In this document: in pieces, positions 4,409 to 10,489 of the stretch
How positions within the stretch are numbered: position 1 is the stretch's first letter
Layout of the letters: each line of letters opens with the position of its first letter
From: Parapedobacter soli
Lineage (GTDB): Bacteria; Bacteroidota; Bacteroidia; Sphingobacteriales; Sphingobacteriaceae
Length of the DNA stretch: 38,780 bases
Assembly (NCBI RefSeq): GCF_025460835.1
Contig: NZ_JAMXAY010000044.1
Coordinates: 1 to 38,780, forward strand
Direction of reading: 5' to 3'
Position numbers and translations under genes: made by a program
Notes under the pieces: generated by a model
The model's database searches: none
What the model was told of the DNA's origin: nothing
What the model saw: the letters and a program-made list of their open reading frames with translations, nothing else

Positions 4409-4482
4409 GGCGGGGTAGCTCAGATGGTTAGAGCGCAGGATTCATAACCCTGAGGTCGGCAGTTCGATCCTGCTCCCCGCTA
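4409..4482 (+). tRNA. tRNA-Met (anticodon CAT)
   Basis: The 74 bases fold into a full cloverleaf: acceptor stem GGCGGGG/CCCCGCT with a terminal G-U pair, D arm GCTC/GAGC, anticodon arm CAGGA/CCCTG with loop TTCATAA (A-C mismatch next to the loop), and a T arm GGCAG/CTGCT with loop TTCGATC. The anticodon is CAT. The anticodon stem lacks the three consecutive G-C pairs of initiator tRNA, so an elongator Met tRNA is the best reading. A lysidine-modified tRNA-Ile2 also carries CAT and cannot be fully excluded. No CCA is encoded after the discriminator A. Confidence 0.95.
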
Positions 4483-4494
4483 CTTTTGAAGAGG

Positions 4495-4775: not shown

Positions 4776-5585
4776 ATGTCATTGATGCTAGACAAGCAAC
4801 ACCCGGTTGTGAGGCTGCGGGCTTTCCGTGCTGTAGACGACCCGAAGGCTTGTGAACTCTTTTTGAAAGGGCACGAACAGGTATTAACGAGTATAGGCGT
4901 AAAAAAAGTAACGTCTTCAAAAAATGAGTGGATGACCAATCCATCGGCATTCGTTCTGATTGTCGAATCGCTTGATAAAGAAAAAGTATATGGGGGTGCC
5001 CGTATCCAGGTTGCCGATGGAAAGCGGCTGTTGCCCATCGAGGAGGCGACCGGTGGAATGGATTCGGGGATTTTCCAATTGGTATGGCAGTATGCACAGC
5101 AGGGTACGGGTGAAATCTGCGGACTTTGGAACTCACGGGAAATAGCAGGGTACGGTGTCGGCAGTATTTTCCTAACGCGGGCAGCAGTGGCTATTTCTAC
5201 ACAAATAGGGATAAGGTCGCTGTTCGCGCTTTGTGCGCCCTATACGGTGAAGATGGCAGAGAGCGTGGGTTATCAGATCGAAACAAGCGTCGGGAATGAC
5301 GGCACGTTTTACTATCCGAAATTAGACCTGCTGGCCACCACTATGCTGCTGGAAAACGTTAATGACCTGGCCCACGCGAGCCCTGAAAATAAGGAGGCCA
5401 TCGATACCATACGGCGTGAGTTGAACGTGGTACGTCTTGAGCAATTGAGAAAAAAAGAAATCGAGATACACTACGAAGCTGAACTGCCGCTAATGGATAG
5501 GTGGAGCTTGGATGAGATTATTAAAAACTACTATAAGGCAAATTCGGGCAACCATTCGGTGCCGAAGTCTATAGATGTACTGTAA
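4776..5585 (+). CDS. Putative N-acyltransferase, GNAT/LuxI/FeeM-like
   Basis: This 269-residue protein has no signal peptide or membrane helix and is not confidently assigned. The middle section looks like the acyl-CoA/ACP-binding fold shared by GNATs and autoinducer synthases. A strand with bulky residues (VYGGARIQV, about 70-79) is followed by a loop with two acidic residues (LPIEEATGGMD), then a strand with an E-x5-SRE pattern (EICGLWNSRE), a helix starting GVGSIFLTRAA, and the VGYQIE strand near 170. In LuxI and FeeM enzymes the comparable region holds the E-x2-R-like core. The last 75 residues are helical and charged. It opens an operon: an Rv1355c/ThiF-like gene begins 32 bases downstream, then a sensor kinase. 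A role in making an N-acylated small molecule is inferred from fold hints and context only. Confidence 0.6.
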   Translation: MSLMLDKQHPVVRLRAFRAVDDPKACELFLKGHEQVLTSIGVKKVTSSKNEWMTNPSAFVLIVESLDKEKVYGGARIQVADGKRLLPIEEATGGMDSGIFQLVWQYAQQGTGEICGLWNSREIAGYGVGSIFLTRAAVAISTQIGIRSLFALCAPYTVKMAESVGYQIETSVGNDGTFYYPKLDLLATTMLLENVNDLAHASPENKEAIDTIRRELNVVRLEQLRKKEIEIHYEAELPLMDRWSLDEIIKNYYKANSGNHSVPKSIDVL

Positions 5586-5617
5586 CAGACCGATTTTTTA
5601 CTGAAGCTGATGTAACC

Positions 5618-6688
5618 ATGGAGACTTCCTATCGCCCTGAACTTCTACAACTTCGAGACGCATCGCAACTTGAGCGGTACAACCAGCTTATTGACGAGCG
5701 GTCTGTATCTGTATACGACGTTATCGATTCCCAATTACGTGAATTGTTCATTGTCCGTAATCCCGGTAGCGGCTTTGAAGCGGGAGCGTACGACCAATTT
5801 GTCAAGCAGTGTCTGGATGGGCAACGTATGCGTGGATATGGGGTTTGGGTATTTTATCCATGGAGCCGCCGGTTAGTACACGTGCTACCGGAGGAAGCGT
5901 TTATAGAAGTGAGGACCAACCGGAACAAGCTAAAGATCACGGAGCAGGAGCAATTGGCCCTTGCCGGTAAAACGGTTGGTGTGGTAGGCCTATCGGTTGG
6001 TCAATCCATAGCGCTTACATTAGCAATGGAACGGACTTGCGGTACATTGAGGCTTGCCGATTTCGACGACGTAGAATTAAGTAACCTGAACCGTATTCGG
6101 ACAGGGGTTCATAACCTGAATACTAACAAGGCTGTATTGGCCGCAAGAGAAATTGCAGAAATAGATCCATTCATCCAGGTTGAAGTGTTTACTGACGGGC
6201 TGACGGAGCACAATATTGCATCTTTTTTGGGAGACGGAAGCGTGAAGCTCGATTTATTGATCGAGGTGTGCGACAGCATGGCAATCAAGCTGCAAAGCAG
6301 GGTTGCTGCACGGAGTCTGCGTATTCCGGTAGTGATGGAAACCAACGACCGCTGTATGCTGGATATCGAGCGCTTTGACCTGGAAGCCGGGCTCCCGATC
6401 CTCCATGGCCTAGTGGCCGAAGAAGACGCGGTGGGCGGAGCAGCATTATCGCGGGAAGAGCAACTGACCATCGTCAAGAAAATTGTAGATATGGCGCAGT
6501 TGTCTGAGCGGATGAAGCAGTCGTTTGCGGAGCTAGGAAAAACGTTGCGGTCATGGCCGCAATTGGCATCGTCTGTAGTGCTTGGTGGCGGTGTGGTTAC
6601 AGATGTGGCGCGGAAGATATTGCTGGGCGAGCATGCGCAGTCCGGAAGATATTATTTTGATATTGATCGCATTTTAAATGATAACTAG
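5618..6688 (+). CDS. ThiF/MoeB/E1-like adenylating enzyme, Rv1355c family, without the nitroreductase half
   Basis: This 356-residue protein has an N-terminal region of about 115 residues with a GYGVWVFYPWSRRLVHVLP segment typical, as I recall it, of the mycobacterial Rv1355c family, then an E1-like Rossmann domain. The nucleotide loop reads GVVGLSVGQSIA (about 125-136) and the ATP/Mg segment LADFDDVELSNLNR is the hallmark of ThiF, MoeB and ubiquitin E1 enzymes. A later VCDSM replaces the usual D-x-TDN motif. I see no paired CxxC zinc motif and no clear catalytic-cysteine loop. Family members of about 700 residues carry a C-terminal nitroreductase-like domain that is missing here. E1-like enzymes adenylate a carboxylate. 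Its stop codon lies inside the start of the sensor kinase gene (11-base overlap), which implies translational coupling. The substrate is unknown. Confidence 0.82.
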   Translation: METSYRPELLQLRDASQLERYNQLIDERSVSVYDVIDSQLRELFIVRNPGSGFEAGAYDQFVKQCLDGQRMRGYGVWVFYPWSRRLVHVLPEEAFIEVRTNRNKLKITEQEQLALAGKTVGVVGLSVGQSIALTLAMERTCGTLRLADFDDVELSNLNRIRTGVHNLNTNKAVLAAREIAEIDPFIQVEVFTDGLTEHNIASFLGDGSVKLDLLIEVCDSMAIKLQSRVAARSLRIPVVMETNDRCMLDIERFDLEAGLPILHGLVAEEDAVGGAALSREEQLTIVKKIVDMAQLSERMKQSFAELGKTLRSWPQLASSVVLGGGVVTDVARKILLGEHAQSGRYYFDIDRILNDN

Positions 6689-8831
6689 GCTAGTTTGGAT
6701 GATGGTGATAGGCTTGTGGTCGCAGGCCTTATTCGCAGATCCCGTAATACGTGTTTCGAATGAAGGTTCCGTGCAGCGGTATATCGGTGATAAAGTGCTG
6801 ATATTCCAAGACTCGGATCAAACGGTTACGCCCGCAGAATTGTTGGCGAGCTCGGCGCTTTTCCAGCGGAGTGAGACGGCTGTGCCAAATTTGGGGGTGA
6901 GTAATCATGTCAATTGGATCAAGTTTACCGTTTACAACGACGCCGACTATGCACAGCTGGTATTGACAATCACGAACCCGACCGTTGCTGAGATAACGTT
7001 GTTTACGCTATATAATGGGGAACGCGACAGCACATCCATTTCAGAAAGGGACACGTATGACAACCGGGATTACAACCATCAATTTTATGCCTTTGACCTG
7101 CATGTAGCTAAAGGTGACTCCATTGTCTGTTTGCTGAGGCTGAAGAGTTCTACGCAGCTACTTGTACCGTTGTCTATCCGGAGTTCAGAAACGGTTGTTA
7201 GGGAGTTGGCCGGTTTTGATTTCCGGTCGGGGACTTATATCGGGCTCATGGTGGCCATGCTTCTTTACAACCTGTTCTTGTATGTTTCTGCACGCGATCG
7301 GCACTATCTCGCGTATGTACACTATATTTTCTGGGTTGCCATCGCCCAGATCACGGTGCTGGGATATTTTGGCCGGATGTTTCAGGGTGTGCCCATTTCA
7401 AGCAGTTATGTACTTGCATTTGTGGGGGCTATGTCGGGCATCGCATCGGTCATCTTTGTGAAGTCGTTTTTGAGTACCAAGGATTACGGTAAAAAAATCA
7501 ATTTTTTGCTCAATTTAATCATAGCGGGAGACCTGCTTGCCATTGCCGTTTTATTATTCGGTGCCCCAACGATGAGCTATGAAGTGGTGAACTTTGTAGC
7601 CGGGGTAGGGTCGTTTATCGTACTTGCGGTAGGGTACGTGATTTACCGGAAGGGAAACCATTCCGCGCGGCTGTTTCTTGTTGCCTGGGGTATCTTTCTG
7701 GGTAGTGTTATCGTGTTTGTATTAAAAGACTATGGAATCTTAGAATACAGCCTTTTTACGGTCCATGCGGTTCAGATAGGGTCGTCAATAGAGGCATTGT
7801 TACTGTCTTTTGCATTGGGCGACAAGATTAATATCTACCGGAAGCAAAAAGAAGAATCGCAGTTGAAGGCCATTGAAATAGCGAAAGAAAACGAAAGGCT
7901 TATCCGTGAGCAAAACGTGGTGTTGGAGCGGCGGGTCGAGGAGCGCACCCATGCGCTGAAAGAGTCGAACGATTCGTTGCAGCAAACGCTGACGCACCTG
8001 AAAGAGACACAGTCGCAATTGGTAGAAGCCGAGAAGATGGCTTCCCTGGGGCAATTGACAGCGGGGGTAGCCCATGAGATAAATAATCCGATTAATTTTG
8101 TGACTTCCAATGTTGCGCCCCTCAAGCGCGATGTAGGCATGGTGTGGGATGCAATGGAGGAAGTGGAGCGTATCGCGCTGGCCGATGACGTACCGGCCGA
8201 TGAGAAAAGGCGTCGCATCGAGGCATACAAAGAAGATATCGATGCGGAGTATCTCAAAACCGAAATCGATTTCCTTCTTAAAGGGATGCATGAGGGTGCT
8301 ACCAGAACGGCTGAGATTGTCAAAAGTTTACGTATATTCTCGCGGGTGGATGAAGACTCGTTGAAATTTGCGGATATCAATGAAGGACTGGAGTCTACGT
8401 TGGTTATCCTGAATAGCGTTATCAAAGAGGGTGTCACCGTGGTTAAGGAATTGGGTGAACTGCCTCTGGTAGAGTGTTATCCCGGTAAATTGAACCAGGT
8501 TTTCCTGAATATCATTACCAATGGTATTTATGCCATCAATAAAAAATTCGAAGGGAAGCCGGGGGGTATTTTGGAGATAAAAACAACTGTTGATAAGGAA
8601 CATGCATATATCTCCATTCGGGATAACGGGGTGGGGATGCCGGATGAGGTGAAGGAAAAGATATTTGAACCCTTTTTCACGACGAAGGAGGTAGGCGAAG
8701 GAACCGGCTTGGGCATGTCTATCGTATACAATACGATAAGGAAACACCAAGGCGAAATCAAGGTTGAGTCTACCGTCGGGGAGGGAGTGGCTTTTTTGAT
8801 TATAATTCCGTTAAATCAGCACATACAATGA
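6678..8831 (+). CDS. 7TM-DISM sensor histidine kinase
   Basis: This 717-residue membrane kinase has a signal sequence (1-20), a periplasmic ligand-binding domain of the 7TMR-DISMED2 type (about 25-165), seven transmembrane helices (about 185-390), a coiled coil rich in Glu and Arg (395-450), a dimerisation/phosphoacceptor domain with GVAHEINNP (His466), a long inserted helical region, and a HATPase domain with the N box, DNGVGMPDE (G1) and GEGTGLGMSIVYN (G2). DISM domains of this type are thought to bind small organic or carbohydrate ligands outside the membrane. The ATG overlaps the end of the ThiF-like gene by 11 bases, so the two are probably coupled. The hybrid receiver-kinase follows after 67 bases. 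It has no receiver domain of its own, so its phosphate probably goes to one of the two receivers encoded next door. Confidence 0.93.
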   Translation: MITRLVWMMVIGLWSQALFADPVIRVSNEGSVQRYIGDKVLIFQDSDQTVTPAELLASSALFQRSETAVPNLGVSNHVNWIKFTVYNDADYAQLVLTITNPTVAEITLFTLYNGERDSTSISERDTYDNRDYNHQFYAFDLHVAKGDSIVCLLRLKSSTQLLVPLSIRSSETVVRELAGFDFRSGTYIGLMVAMLLYNLFLYVSARDRHYLAYVHYIFWVAIAQITVLGYFGRMFQGVPISSSYVLAFVGAMSGIASVIFVKSFLSTKDYGKKINFLLNLIIAGDLLAIAVLLFGAPTMSYEVVNFVAGVGSFIVLAVGYVIYRKGNHSARLFLVAWGIFLGSVIVFVLKDYGILEYSLFTVHAVQIGSSIEALLLSFALGDKINIYRKQKEESQLKAIEIAKENERLIREQNVVLERRVEERTHALKESNDSLQQTLTHLKETQSQLVEAEKMASLGQLTAGVAHEINNPINFVTSNVAPLKRDVGMVWDAMEEVERIALADDVPADEKRRRIEAYKEDIDAEYLKTEIDFLLKGMHEGATRTAEIVKSLRIFSRVDEDSLKFADINEGLESTLVILNSVIKEGVTVVKELGELPLVECYPGKLNQVFLNIITNGIYAINKKFEGKPGGILEIKTTVDKEHAYISIRDNGVGMPDEVKEKIFEPFFTTKEVGEGTGLGMSIVYNTIRKHQGEIKVESTVGEGVAFLIIIPLNQHIQ

Positions 8832-8837
8832 GTTTAA

Positions 8838-8867
8838 TTTGTTAATCATTTTGTTAATTTTGTTAAA
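8838..8867 (+). repeat. Three copies of TTTGTTAAW overlapping a -7 promoter match
   Basis: TTTGTTAAT at 8838-8846, TTTGTTAAT at 8850-8858 and TTTGTTAAA at 8859-8867 fill most of the 67-base gap between the sensor kinase and the receiver-kinase gene. The second and third copies together form TAATTTTG (8855-8862), an exact -7 match 36 bases before the GTG start. The array could be a regulator-binding cluster or AT-rich spacer drift. Confidence 0.5.
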
Positions 8868-8898
8868 TAAATCAATAACCTTATAAACTTCCTTTGGT

Positions 8899-9987
8899 GT
8901 GAAGCTCGAGTCTCCGGAAATACTTTATATCGACGATGAAGCCAACAACTTGATCAGTTTTAAGGCTACGTTCAGGTACCGGTATACGGTTCATACGGCG
9001 GTGAGTACGGCCGAGGCCCGGGAAATATTGGGTCAGAATCCGAATATACGGGTGATTTTCTGCGACCAACGGATGCCCGGCGAAACGGGTATCGAATTCC
9101 TGCATGAGGTGAGGCAGAAGTACCCATTGCCGGTGAGGATTCTCTTGACGGCCTACGCCGATCTGGAAACGGTTGTAGATGCGGTGAATAAAGGGCATAT
9201 TTTCCGGTTTGTGCGGAAGCCATGGGTAGAGGAGGAGATTATCTCTTCAATCGAAGAAGCCAACAAGTTTTTCATTACCGACTCGATGCTGGCCATCCGG
9301 AATGAGGAGCTACAAAAAGCCTATGACGAACTGGATAAGTTTGCATACAGTGTCAGCCACGACCTCCGCGACCCTCTCACAGGTGTACTGTCGGCTATAA
9401 AGTTGGCATTGGAATTCGATTCTGTCGAGCGCATACACGAAATCCTGGCACTTATGGAAAGCTCGGTGCTGAGGCTGAATACCTATATCAACAGTTTGCA
9501 CGACTATTACTTGCTGAAGCGGGGGGAATTGACTATCTCTGATATTAATTTTGATGCCCTTCTTGAGTATCTGAAAAGTTTTTACAGTATCTATAGCCAG
9601 AATAACAGTGTAGCGTTCACGATCAGGAGTAATCAGCAGGAAGAGTTTAAGAGCGATGAGACAACCCTGAAATTGATCTTACACAACCTGGTATCCAATG
9701 CTTTCAAATACCAAAAGCAAGACGGCGATAATAAATCGGTCGAGCTATCGGTGGATGTGAAAGGAGGAAAGGCAACGATATGTGTCAAGGATACGGGGAT
9801 AGGTATTGCTACTGGAGATATCGGTGAGATTTTTAAATTGTTTTTTAGGGGTAGCGACCAAGCTGAAGGGACGGGATTCGGGCTTTACAATGTGAAGAGT
9901 GCGTTGGCTAAACTTCGCGGCGAGATAGAGGTCAAGTCGGAACATGGGGTGGGTACGACGTTCATCGTAACGATTCCAAGTAAGTAA
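8899..9987 (+). CDS. Hybrid protein: N-terminal receiver domain and C-terminal histidine kinase
   Basis: This 362-residue cytoplasmic protein starts with a receiver domain (about 7-125) holding the acidic pair D12-D13, the phosphoacceptor D56 in CDQRMPG and the conserved Lys in FVRKPW. A helix links it to a HisKA domain with YSVSHDLRDP (His154) and a HATPase domain with NLVSNAFKYQ, DTGIGI and GTGFGLYNV. Receiver-first, kinase-second proteins can relay or tune a signal instead of acting on DNA. The reading frame starts with GTG; no better start is visible. It follows the 7TM-DISM kinase on the same strand. Its receiver is strikingly similar to the stand-alone receiver encoded convergently just downstream (both contain NNLISFKATFR), so the two are recent paralogues and may compete for the same phosphodonor. 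Confidence 0.93.
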   Translation: MKLESPEILYIDDEANNLISFKATFRYRYTVHTAVSTAEAREILGQNPNIRVIFCDQRMPGETGIEFLHEVRQKYPLPVRILLTAYADLETVVDAVNKGHIFRFVRKPWVEEEIISSIEEANKFFITDSMLAIRNEELQKAYDELDKFAYSVSHDLRDPLTGVLSAIKLALEFDSVERIHEILALMESSVLRLNTYINSLHDYYLLKRGELTISDINFDALLEYLKSFYSIYSQNNSVAFTIRSNQQEEFKSDETTLKLILHNLVSNAFKYQKQDGDNKSVELSVDVKGGKATICVKDTGIGIATGDIGEIFKLFFRGSDQAEGTGFGLYNVKSALAKLRGEIEVKSEHGVGTTFIVTIPSK

Positions 9988-10027
9988 ACAAGCAGTAACC
10001 TGGCGCTGGTACAGGCAAAGGGCTTCG

Positions 10028-10489
10028 CTAAGAAAGCAGCTTCTGCCTGAGCAGAAATTCGAGCTGTTCGTTGGTGACTTCGAGCTGCGAAAAGGATTCT
10101 TTTATTTTCTGCCGCTCAGACAATATTTCATACGCCCTTTGTATGGTATCATCCAGCTCTTCTTCACTCCAGGGCTTACTTAGGTAATGGAATATTTTCC
10201 CTTTGTTTACCGCGTCTACCACTGCGCCCATGTCGGCATAGCCGGTCAGTAAAATCCGCATAGGTTCGGGGTTGATTTTGATAACCTCTTCGAGGAATTC
10301 AACACCAGTCATCTGGGGCATCCGCTGGTCAGTAATGATAATGTCTATCGGATGCTGTTTGACGATTTCCATGGCGTCAATACCACTCAAAGCGGTATAT
10401 ATCTTATATTTCAGACGAAAAGTGGCTTTGAAAGAAATCAAGTTGTTTTCTTCGTCGTCTACATATAGAACGGAAATTTTCGCTTCCAT
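10028..10489 (-). CDS. Single-domain response regulator with a short helical tail
   Basis: This 153-residue protein is almost entirely a receiver domain (about 5-122): acidic pocket D11-D12, phosphoacceptor D54 in TDQRMPQM, conserved Thr in LLTGYAD and Lys in LSKPW. The last 30 residues form a charged helix without a DNA-binding or enzymatic domain. It therefore probably acts by protein contact, as a CheY-like output or a phosphate sink. It is convergent to the receiver-kinase gene with a 40-base gap, and its first half closely resembles that protein's receiver. This places it functionally with the block at 4.8-10 kb despite its opposite strand. Its promoter should lie in the following non-coding region, but I find no consensus match there. 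Confidence 0.92.
   Translation of the reverse strand: MEAKISVLYVDDEENNLISFKATFRLKYKIYTALSGIDAMEIVKQHPIDIIITDQRMPQMTGVEFLEEVIKINPEPMRILLTGYADMGAVVDAVNKGKIFHYLSKPWSEEELDDTIQRAYEILSERQKIKESFSQLEVTNEQLEFLLRQKLLS

Follow-up and report, generated by a model that had tools for sequence, protein, structure and literature searches.

A conserved Bacteroidota gene module that probably pairs synthesis of an N-acyl amino acid signal with its sensor kinase

A 38,780 nt stretch of the Parapedobacter soli genome (contig NZ_JAMXAY010000044.1 of RefSeq assembly GCF_025460835.1, analyzed at full length and hereafter called the window) carries between positions 4,776 and 10,489 five consecutive genes, P1 to P5, which encode a predicted N-acyltransferase, an E1/ThiF-like enzyme, a seven-transmembrane (7TM) sensor histidine kinase and two proteins with receiver domains. 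We found that this module is real and conserved, and that its neighboring genes probably make a small signal from a fatty acid and an amino acid together with the receptor that senses it. The strongest evidence is that, within P3, the sensor half varies with the tailoring enzyme of each locus while the kinase half does not.

Conservation and in-place exchange within the module

P1 was present in 96 of the 201 genomes surveyed in the order, and a P1 profile search across the phylum found it in 13 of 395 genomes. The closest named relative of P1 is that of Parapedobacter luteus (NZ_FUYS01000003.1, 79%). The 95 hits of the order survey other than the window and nine additional hits of the phylum survey gave a set of 104 loci, in 103 of which P1 was called by profile; the remaining one, L070, proved canonical when inspected. 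In the order, P2 was found in 80 genomes, all of which were among the 96 with P1 (hypergeometric 2.4e-40, kinship ignored). The sensor kinase gene directly follows the enzyme genes in all 101 loci where it was called and also in L070; because this arrangement holds in 102 of the 104 loci, the gene order is far beyond chance. The preliminary description of this DNA, made from the sequence alone, had assigned the enzymes and the kinase to one module, and the neighborhood survey indeed found them kept together. In L136, a contig edge falls inside the sensor gene. In a partly overlapping set of 32 named loci, the sensor gene was found in 31; in the other, L031, the contig breaks off right behind P1. 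The spacing to the kinase has a median of 1 base (101 gaps, with starts taken as the first possible codons so that overlaps are overestimated).

P4 was present in 97 of the 103 called loci and P5 was encoded on the opposite strand in 93, some of the misses being contig ends, and an additional CheY-like receiver was found in 58. The flanking genes vary between genera, as judged by the lengths of unclassified neighbors and not by sequence. At 4409-4483 of the window, a tRNA-Met (CAT) gene precedes P1 by about 290 bases. Two open frames, of 978 and 1017 aa, looked like P1-enzyme fusions but were rejected as such, because the proteins are encoded by separate genes in L068 and L069.

The enzyme encoded along with P1 and P3 is exchangeable. 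The 103 called loci comprise 31 with E1 alone (including L087, which is cut by a contig end), 54 in which an oxidase is fused to E1, 16 with a class I S-adenosylmethionine (SAM) methyltransferase and two with neither. Among the named species, Parapedobacter luteus and Sphingobacterium alimentarium have the E1 type, and Sphingobacterium detergens (L004) has the methyltransferase type. In the order survey, the 16 genomes with P1 but without P2 were exactly the 16 with the methyltransferase. The two loci with neither (L086 and L170) encode an ICMT/PEMT-group protein of 213 aa, the best PDB matches of which are isoprenylcysteine carboxyl methyltransferases. Unrelated enzymes thus occupy one slot. 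As the group on which TrzS (a relative of P2 described below) acts is a carboxylate and the name of ICMT refers to carboxyl methylation, the slot may serve to cap the carboxylate of the P1 product. To include the class I methyltransferase, whose closest relatives are of mixed function, among these carboxylate cappers is a guess.

P3 (6678..8831, + strand, 717 aa) matches the Pfam families 7TMR-DISMED2, 7TMR-DISM_7TM and HATPase_c over the cut-off and HisKA below it. The protein is divided into an exchangeable sensor half (residues 22-385, 6741..7832), which tracks the tailoring enzyme, and a conserved kinase half (residue 390 to the end, 7845..8828), which tracks no enzyme type. Among the 28 loci of genus g2, the 7TM region is 63% identical within the same enzyme type and 32-33% identical across types, whereas the corresponding values for the kinase half are 67-78% and 69-70%. 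When P3 was divided into 30-residue blocks, the mean cross-type identity in g2 was 17-50% before residue 390 and 52-95% after it, and the latter blocks were within 5 points of the same-type pairs.

The phylogenies show the same pattern. In a first set of trees built from 102 proteins (98 for P4; the two loci with neither enzyme were not counted), the number of changes between methyltransferase and E1 was one on the sensor tree but seven on the kinase tree, seven on the P4 tree and six on the P1 tree. In a second set, restricted to the 53 loci in which P1 is the first gene, the sensor tree again had one change, with a support of 100 for the methyltransferase clade, and the kinase tree had eight (minimum 9 and mean 13.9 in 200 shuffles). 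Holding the 16 methyltransferase loci together on the kinase data was rejected (approximately unbiased test, p-AU 1.5e-44). Separate trees gave one enzyme change for DISMED2 and one for the 7TM region, as compared with nine for the kinase, six for P1, seven for P4 (52 rows) and seven for P5 (48 rows). When methyltransferase, E1 and E1 with oxidase were treated as three states, the sensor trees required four changes and the kinase tree 12, while the genus changed eight times on the kinase tree and ten times on the sensor trees. All 16 methyltransferase loci, which belong to three genera, fall in one sensor clade. This covariation of sensor and enzyme is the pherotype pattern of matched signal/receptor pairs.

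Allelic exchange happens at one chromosomal site. L105, which carries E1, and L107 and L108, which carry the methyltransferase, are flanked by the same genes, with identities of 57-79% upstream and 62% downstream. Between them, P1 is 70-71%, the kinase half 79%, P4 86% and P5 92% identical, but ThiF is replaced by the methyltransferase and the sensors are only 30-32% identical. Within the genus of the window, L073 has the same flanks as the window (LptF-like protein 80%, START-domain protein 89%, EF-Ts 90% and S2 90%), and its P4 and kinase half are 77% and 73% identical to those of the window, compared with 43% for P1 and 34% for the sensor. This locus encodes E1 with oxidase and its gene order differs from that of the window. 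L074 resembles L073 but has only the downstream flank in common, and L144 of the same genus has neither flank in common.

Predicted functions of the encoded proteins

For P1 (4776..5585, + strand, 269 aa), neither Pfam nor NCBIfam gave a family match at E up to 1, and a comparison with PDB sequences returned nothing below E 0.8. An alignment of 23 rows, consisting of the window and 22 of the 32-locus set, was used for AlphaFold2, and the resulting model had a predicted local distance difference test score (pLDDT) of 87.4 and a predicted template modeling score (pTM) of 0.86. In a Foldseek search of the model against PDB, ranks 1-6 were FeeM chains (best 2g0b, E 3.3e-9, TM score 0.76 by target). 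These were followed by acyl-homoserine lactone synthases, led by the coenzyme A (CoA)-dependent MesI, BjaI and RpaI, with TofI also high and LasI and EsaI among the matches. The earlier fold call of an acyltransferase-like protein had been tentative; the predicted fold now places P1 among the acyltransferases of FeeM/LuxI type. The name LuxI was dropped because no family model matches P1, and the relation is retained at the level of the fold. P1 is predicted to be an N-acyl amino acid synthase, which would acylate an amino acid from acyl-CoA.

Moderate evidence from profile comparison suggests that P1 is homologous to TrzA-type proteins, the partners of the P2 family in mycolic-acid bacteria. 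We built a shallow TrzA-type profile from three Rhodococcus and Nocardia neighbors of Rv1355c-type proteins, which are TrzA-type by position. Alignment of the P1 profile to it by hhalign gave a score of 40.7 (prob 71, E 3.7e-5), and the three rows singly scored 31.1, 28.5 and 37.3 against the P1 profile; as a control, the best of 117 unclassified neighbor proteins, from a draw of at most 150, scored 25.1. An earlier comparison with shallower profiles had given P 0.049, and two single actinobacterial neighbors of Rv1355c-like genes, a GNAT protein (L064) and a hypothetical protein (L066), had no profile link to P1.

P2 (5618..6688, + strand, 356 aa) matches Pfam ThiF (E 1.1e-17), and the ThiF-like label of the preliminary description was correct. 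It can now be narrowed down: by sequence comparison, P2 corresponds to the E1/ThiF cyclase half of Rv1355c/TrzS family proteins and lacks their oxidase half. P2 matches NCBIfam NF005901 (Rv1355c) with 455.7 bits over positions 9-340 of 722, the second half being missing, and with this half-length match it falls below the curated equivalog cut-off of 476; a relative, L028, carries a full member of E1 with oxidase (759 bits). In a 6-row alignment with full-length proteins of the Rv1355c type, encoded on plasmids of Mycolicibacterium and Rhodococcus, P2 is 43% identical to them, and D219 and the NLNR motif (N156-R159) are invariant in all six rows. D219 is the putative ATP-contact Asp and would correspond by context to D217 of Mycobacterium smegmatis TrzS. 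The flavin oxidase half is absent from P2 and had no match elsewhere in the genome in a search that included no positive control, and no second Rv1355c-type protein was found in this genome. The positions of the five genes and the location of the first four on the + strand agree with the preliminary description, as does the 11-base overlap between P2 and P3, given that P3 starts at its first ATG, which reads like the start of an apparent signal peptide.

The chemistry of the P2 family has been described outside Bacteroidota. Rv1355c is TrzS and its neighbor Rv1356c is TrzA, and the pair acylates tryptophan and then cyclizes and desaturates the product to N-acyl tryptazolone (PMC12856293). Likewise, OxzAB produces tyrazolones and phenazolones, and TyzACB produces tyrazolones (PMC12856293, PMC10404671). 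Acyl-tryptophans were richer in the supernatant and tryptazolones in the cells, and a signaling role has been raised for oxazolones from their structural likeness to acyl-homoserine lactones and from neighboring cyclic di-GMP (c-di-GMP) genes (PMC12856293). In the plasmids that we collected, an Rv1355c-type gene adjoins an annotated GGDEF gene in Rhodococcus (L065:3033-7178) and a GGDEF gene recognized by its motif in the reading frame in Nocardia (L172:4593-5981), which hints that outside Bacteroidota there may be a link to c-di-GMP. Two Streptomyces plasmids perhaps encode related chemistries: L064:5929-7727 has an Rv1355c-like ThiF protein of oxidase-free length beside a GNAT protein, and L067:5152-8066 has a 622 aa Rv1355c-like ThiF protein, with the match in its later part, beside a beta-ketoacyl-acyl carrier protein synthase III.

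P4 (8899..9987, + strand, 362 aa) contains the Pfam domains Response_reg, HisKA and HATPase_c, and P5 (10028..10489, - strand, 153 aa) is a single receiver (Response_reg, E 4.6e-20). Both had been taken for paralogous receivers. The receivers of P4 and P5 are true paralogues (59% identical over 112 positions), but P4 is not a plain receiver: its domains are those of a receiver-histidine kinase, a candidate relay kinase. A search of the genome for a third CheY-like receiver gave three weak matches, the best with E 2.7e-8 and 30% identity. In several loci of genus g3 (L141-L143, L163, L165 and L167 among them), the opposite strand encodes two P5-type receivers in tandem. The C-terminal tail of P5, QLEFLLRQ(K/R)LLS or a near-variant, is conserved in relatives such as L006, L009, L020 and L028 and is perhaps a docking or dimer helix.

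Proposed circuit and its alternatives

We consider it likely that the module is a self-sensing, quorum-sensing-like circuit whose signal is a carboxyl-capped N-acyl amino acid, either an oxazolone or a methylated compound. P1 would join acyl-CoA to an amino acid, and P2 would adenylate the carboxylate of this product and close an oxazolone by analogy with TrzS and TyzB. Because no oxidase half was found in the genome, the expected product is a saturated ring or its derivative. Oxazolones are labile in acid. Such a neutral lipophilic compound would exit the cell or collect in the envelope and, as the covariation suggests, may bind the DISMED2/7TM half of P3, which would signal through the receivers of P4 and P5 to an output outside the locus. 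In the relatives, the compound would be finished by E1 with oxidase, E1 alone, the class I methyltransferase or the ICMT-like methyltransferase, with the sensor half exchanged along, and this joint exchange of enzyme and sensor would create pherotype-like signal-receptor pairs. The gene content, the predicted fold, the conservation and the covariation of sensor and enzyme are results of the analysis; we infer the substrates, product, export, binding, phosphotransfer and output of the circuit. The earlier proposal that a carboxylated acyl compound made here is sensed by the kinase gains support from the grouping of P2 with TrzS, which cyclizes N-acyl tryptophan, and from the covariation of the sensor with the tailoring enzyme.

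Several observations weigh against such a circuit. One of the 104 loci, L077 (G049), has P1 and E1 with oxidase but truly lacks the sensor kinase; the next gene there encodes a protein of 621 aa that weakly matches pentapeptide repeats. At lower ranks, the P1 fold was also matched by general GNAT acetyltransferases (E about 5e-6). TyzA and the cyclase TyzB without the oxidase yielded no detectable cyclized product (PMC12856293), so a locus with E1 only may make another product, and the class I methyltransferase need not act on a carboxylate. The difference between the two halves of P3 is also not absolute, as the kinase half is slightly more alike within enzyme types (0.025; 4/2000 permutations), and same-type identity exceeds cross-type identity for P1 (76% vs 71%), P4 (68% vs 66%) and P5 (79% vs 76%). 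In g3, the periplasmic domain is about 24% identical even within one enzyme type; therefore, the sensors vary for other reasons too, which suggests many sub-specificities. Pfam found no DNA-binding domain in P4 or P5 and no DNA-binding output in the locus. The compound, the ligand binding and the phosphotransfer steps are moreover what we infer rather than observe.

In the loci that start with P1, the enzyme gene directly adjoins the end of P3 that encodes the sensor, so that a single recombination tract could transfer the two even if they were not functionally matched. This is the main rival explanation, in which P1 and P2 would make a lipid or antibiotic, the kinase would sense an unrelated cue, and enzyme and sensor would merely be neighbors between two recombination arms, P1 and the kinase half. 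The exchanged tract is in fact contiguous and its flanks are conserved. To separate linkage from function, we calculated partial Mantel correlations between sensor and enzyme identities within single enzyme types after removing kinase and P4 identities, and obtained r values of 0.79, 0.88, 0.97 and 0.96 for 28, 15, 13 and 14 loci, respectively (each p 0.0002). Given kinase and P4, sensor identity also follows that of P1 (r 0.46-0.95) and, to a lesser degree, that of P5 (0.25-0.34). The sensor region is located between the enzyme gene and the kinase half of the same protein, but its correlation with the kinase half (r -0.02 to 0.60 given P4, a conditioning that differs from the enzyme test) was lower than that with the enzyme. 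In the 28 loci of g3, P1 lies between the enzyme and the sensor, and the coupling of these two is still 0.79. This pattern favors functional matching over linkage without proving it, and passive linkage is also at odds with the single sensor clade formed by the methyltransferase loci of three genera. We therefore regard it as unlikely, though it deserves to be taken seriously.

Two other explanations appear less probable still. The kinase might sense another cue, such as envelope stress or a competitor, and induce the N-acyl amino acid or oxazolone as a lipid, antibiotic or stress factor. Subinhibitory antibiotics do induce oxazolones in several proteobacteria (PMC12856293), but regulated production of this kind would not account for a sensor that changes together with the final enzyme, and we consider it improbable. 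Alternatively, the substrate that P2 modifies could be a protein or peptide, in the manner of the ubiquitin-like pathways of bacteria, given its ThiF/E1 fold and its weaker matches among PDB sequences to UBA5 and other bacterial ThiF-type proteins. However, P2 belongs to the Rv1355c family and is encoded beside a protein with an acyltransferase fold, and no ubiquitin-like or E2 gene was noticed in the neighborhoods that were read, although no search was aimed at one. This role for P2 is highly improbable.

Comparison with known systems

The enzymes are a new branch of known chemistry. In TrzAS (Rv1356c-Rv1355c) of mycolic-acid bacteria, an N-acyltransferase gene likewise neighbors the gene of a ThiF-like cyclase from the family of P2, in which the adenylation Asp is conserved by context (PMC12856293). 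The module of the window differs from TrzAS in lacking the oxidase half, in its Bacteroidota host and in its very distant acyltransferase; moreover, a sensor kinase and receivers belong to its unit, whereas the term 'histidine kinase' occurs 0 times in PMC12856293. The same three enzyme types are found in OxzAB of Pseudoalteromonas, in TyzACB of M. tuberculosis and in the clusters of N-acyl amino acid synthase (NAS), ThiF and nitroreductase of N-acyl tyrosine producers, which occur in at least Pseudomonadota, Actinomycetota and Planctomycetota (PMC12479983). PMC10404671 also has 0 occurrences of 'histidine kinase'. In Stieleria, methyltransferases near NAS/ThiF genes accompany ThiF (PMC12479983), whereas in the Bacteroidota module the methyltransferase replaces it. 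P1 has its fold in common with FeeM and the LuxI/BjaI-type synthases, among which FeeM and the CoA-dependent acyl-homoserine lactone synthases rank highest, but unlike them it has no Pfam match and forms a sequence family of its own. LuxM/LuxN and CqsA/CqsS of Vibrio are arranged as proposed here, with an acyl-type small signal made beside its own membrane kinase; their synthases are unrelated, and their phosphorelay has a known output.

The circuit had been suggested to be not known from the standard families. This does not hold for the enzyme chemistry, which is that of OxzAB, TyzACB and TrzAS, but the pairing with a receptor was not found in the literature searched. Likewise, we found no report of the Bacteroidota version, its cognate kinase or the exchange of sensor and enzyme in the open-licence literature, which was mostly judged by titles and the starts of abstracts. 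To our knowledge, few autoinducer-like systems are known in Bacteroidota. On balance, we lean slightly toward the view that the module represents a widespread, unreported class of cell-cell signaling in Bacteroidota, in which carboxyl-capped N-acyl amino acids (oxazolones or methylated compounds, made by P1 and an exchangeable finisher) are sensed by a 7TM-DISM kinase with a co-exchanged sensor half, and dialects are switched at one site. If this is true, bacterial oxazolones would gain their first receptor and 7TM-DISM kinases a class of ligands, and Bacteroidota would have an autoinducer-like system of this kind. The role of bacterial oxazolones is described as a major unresolved question (PMC12856293), and a conserved unit that ties oxazolone chemistry to a dedicated membrane receptor makes it directly testable.

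The module can be likened to ComQXPA of Bacillus, in which a signal-modifying enzyme is encoded beside a multi-transmembrane histidine kinase and pherotypes occur (PMC4008528). ComQXPA has a peptide signal and a DNA-binding response regulator; at the present locus, no peptide gene was noticed, and there is no response regulator with DNA-binding output. On the other hand, the enzyme genes, here predicted to make the signal, and the sensor kinase are conserved as a unit (102/104 loci), and a variable sensor matched to the enzyme is joined to a conserved kinase. ComP likewise combines a variable N-terminal sensor with a conserved kinase (PMC4008528), as does P3.

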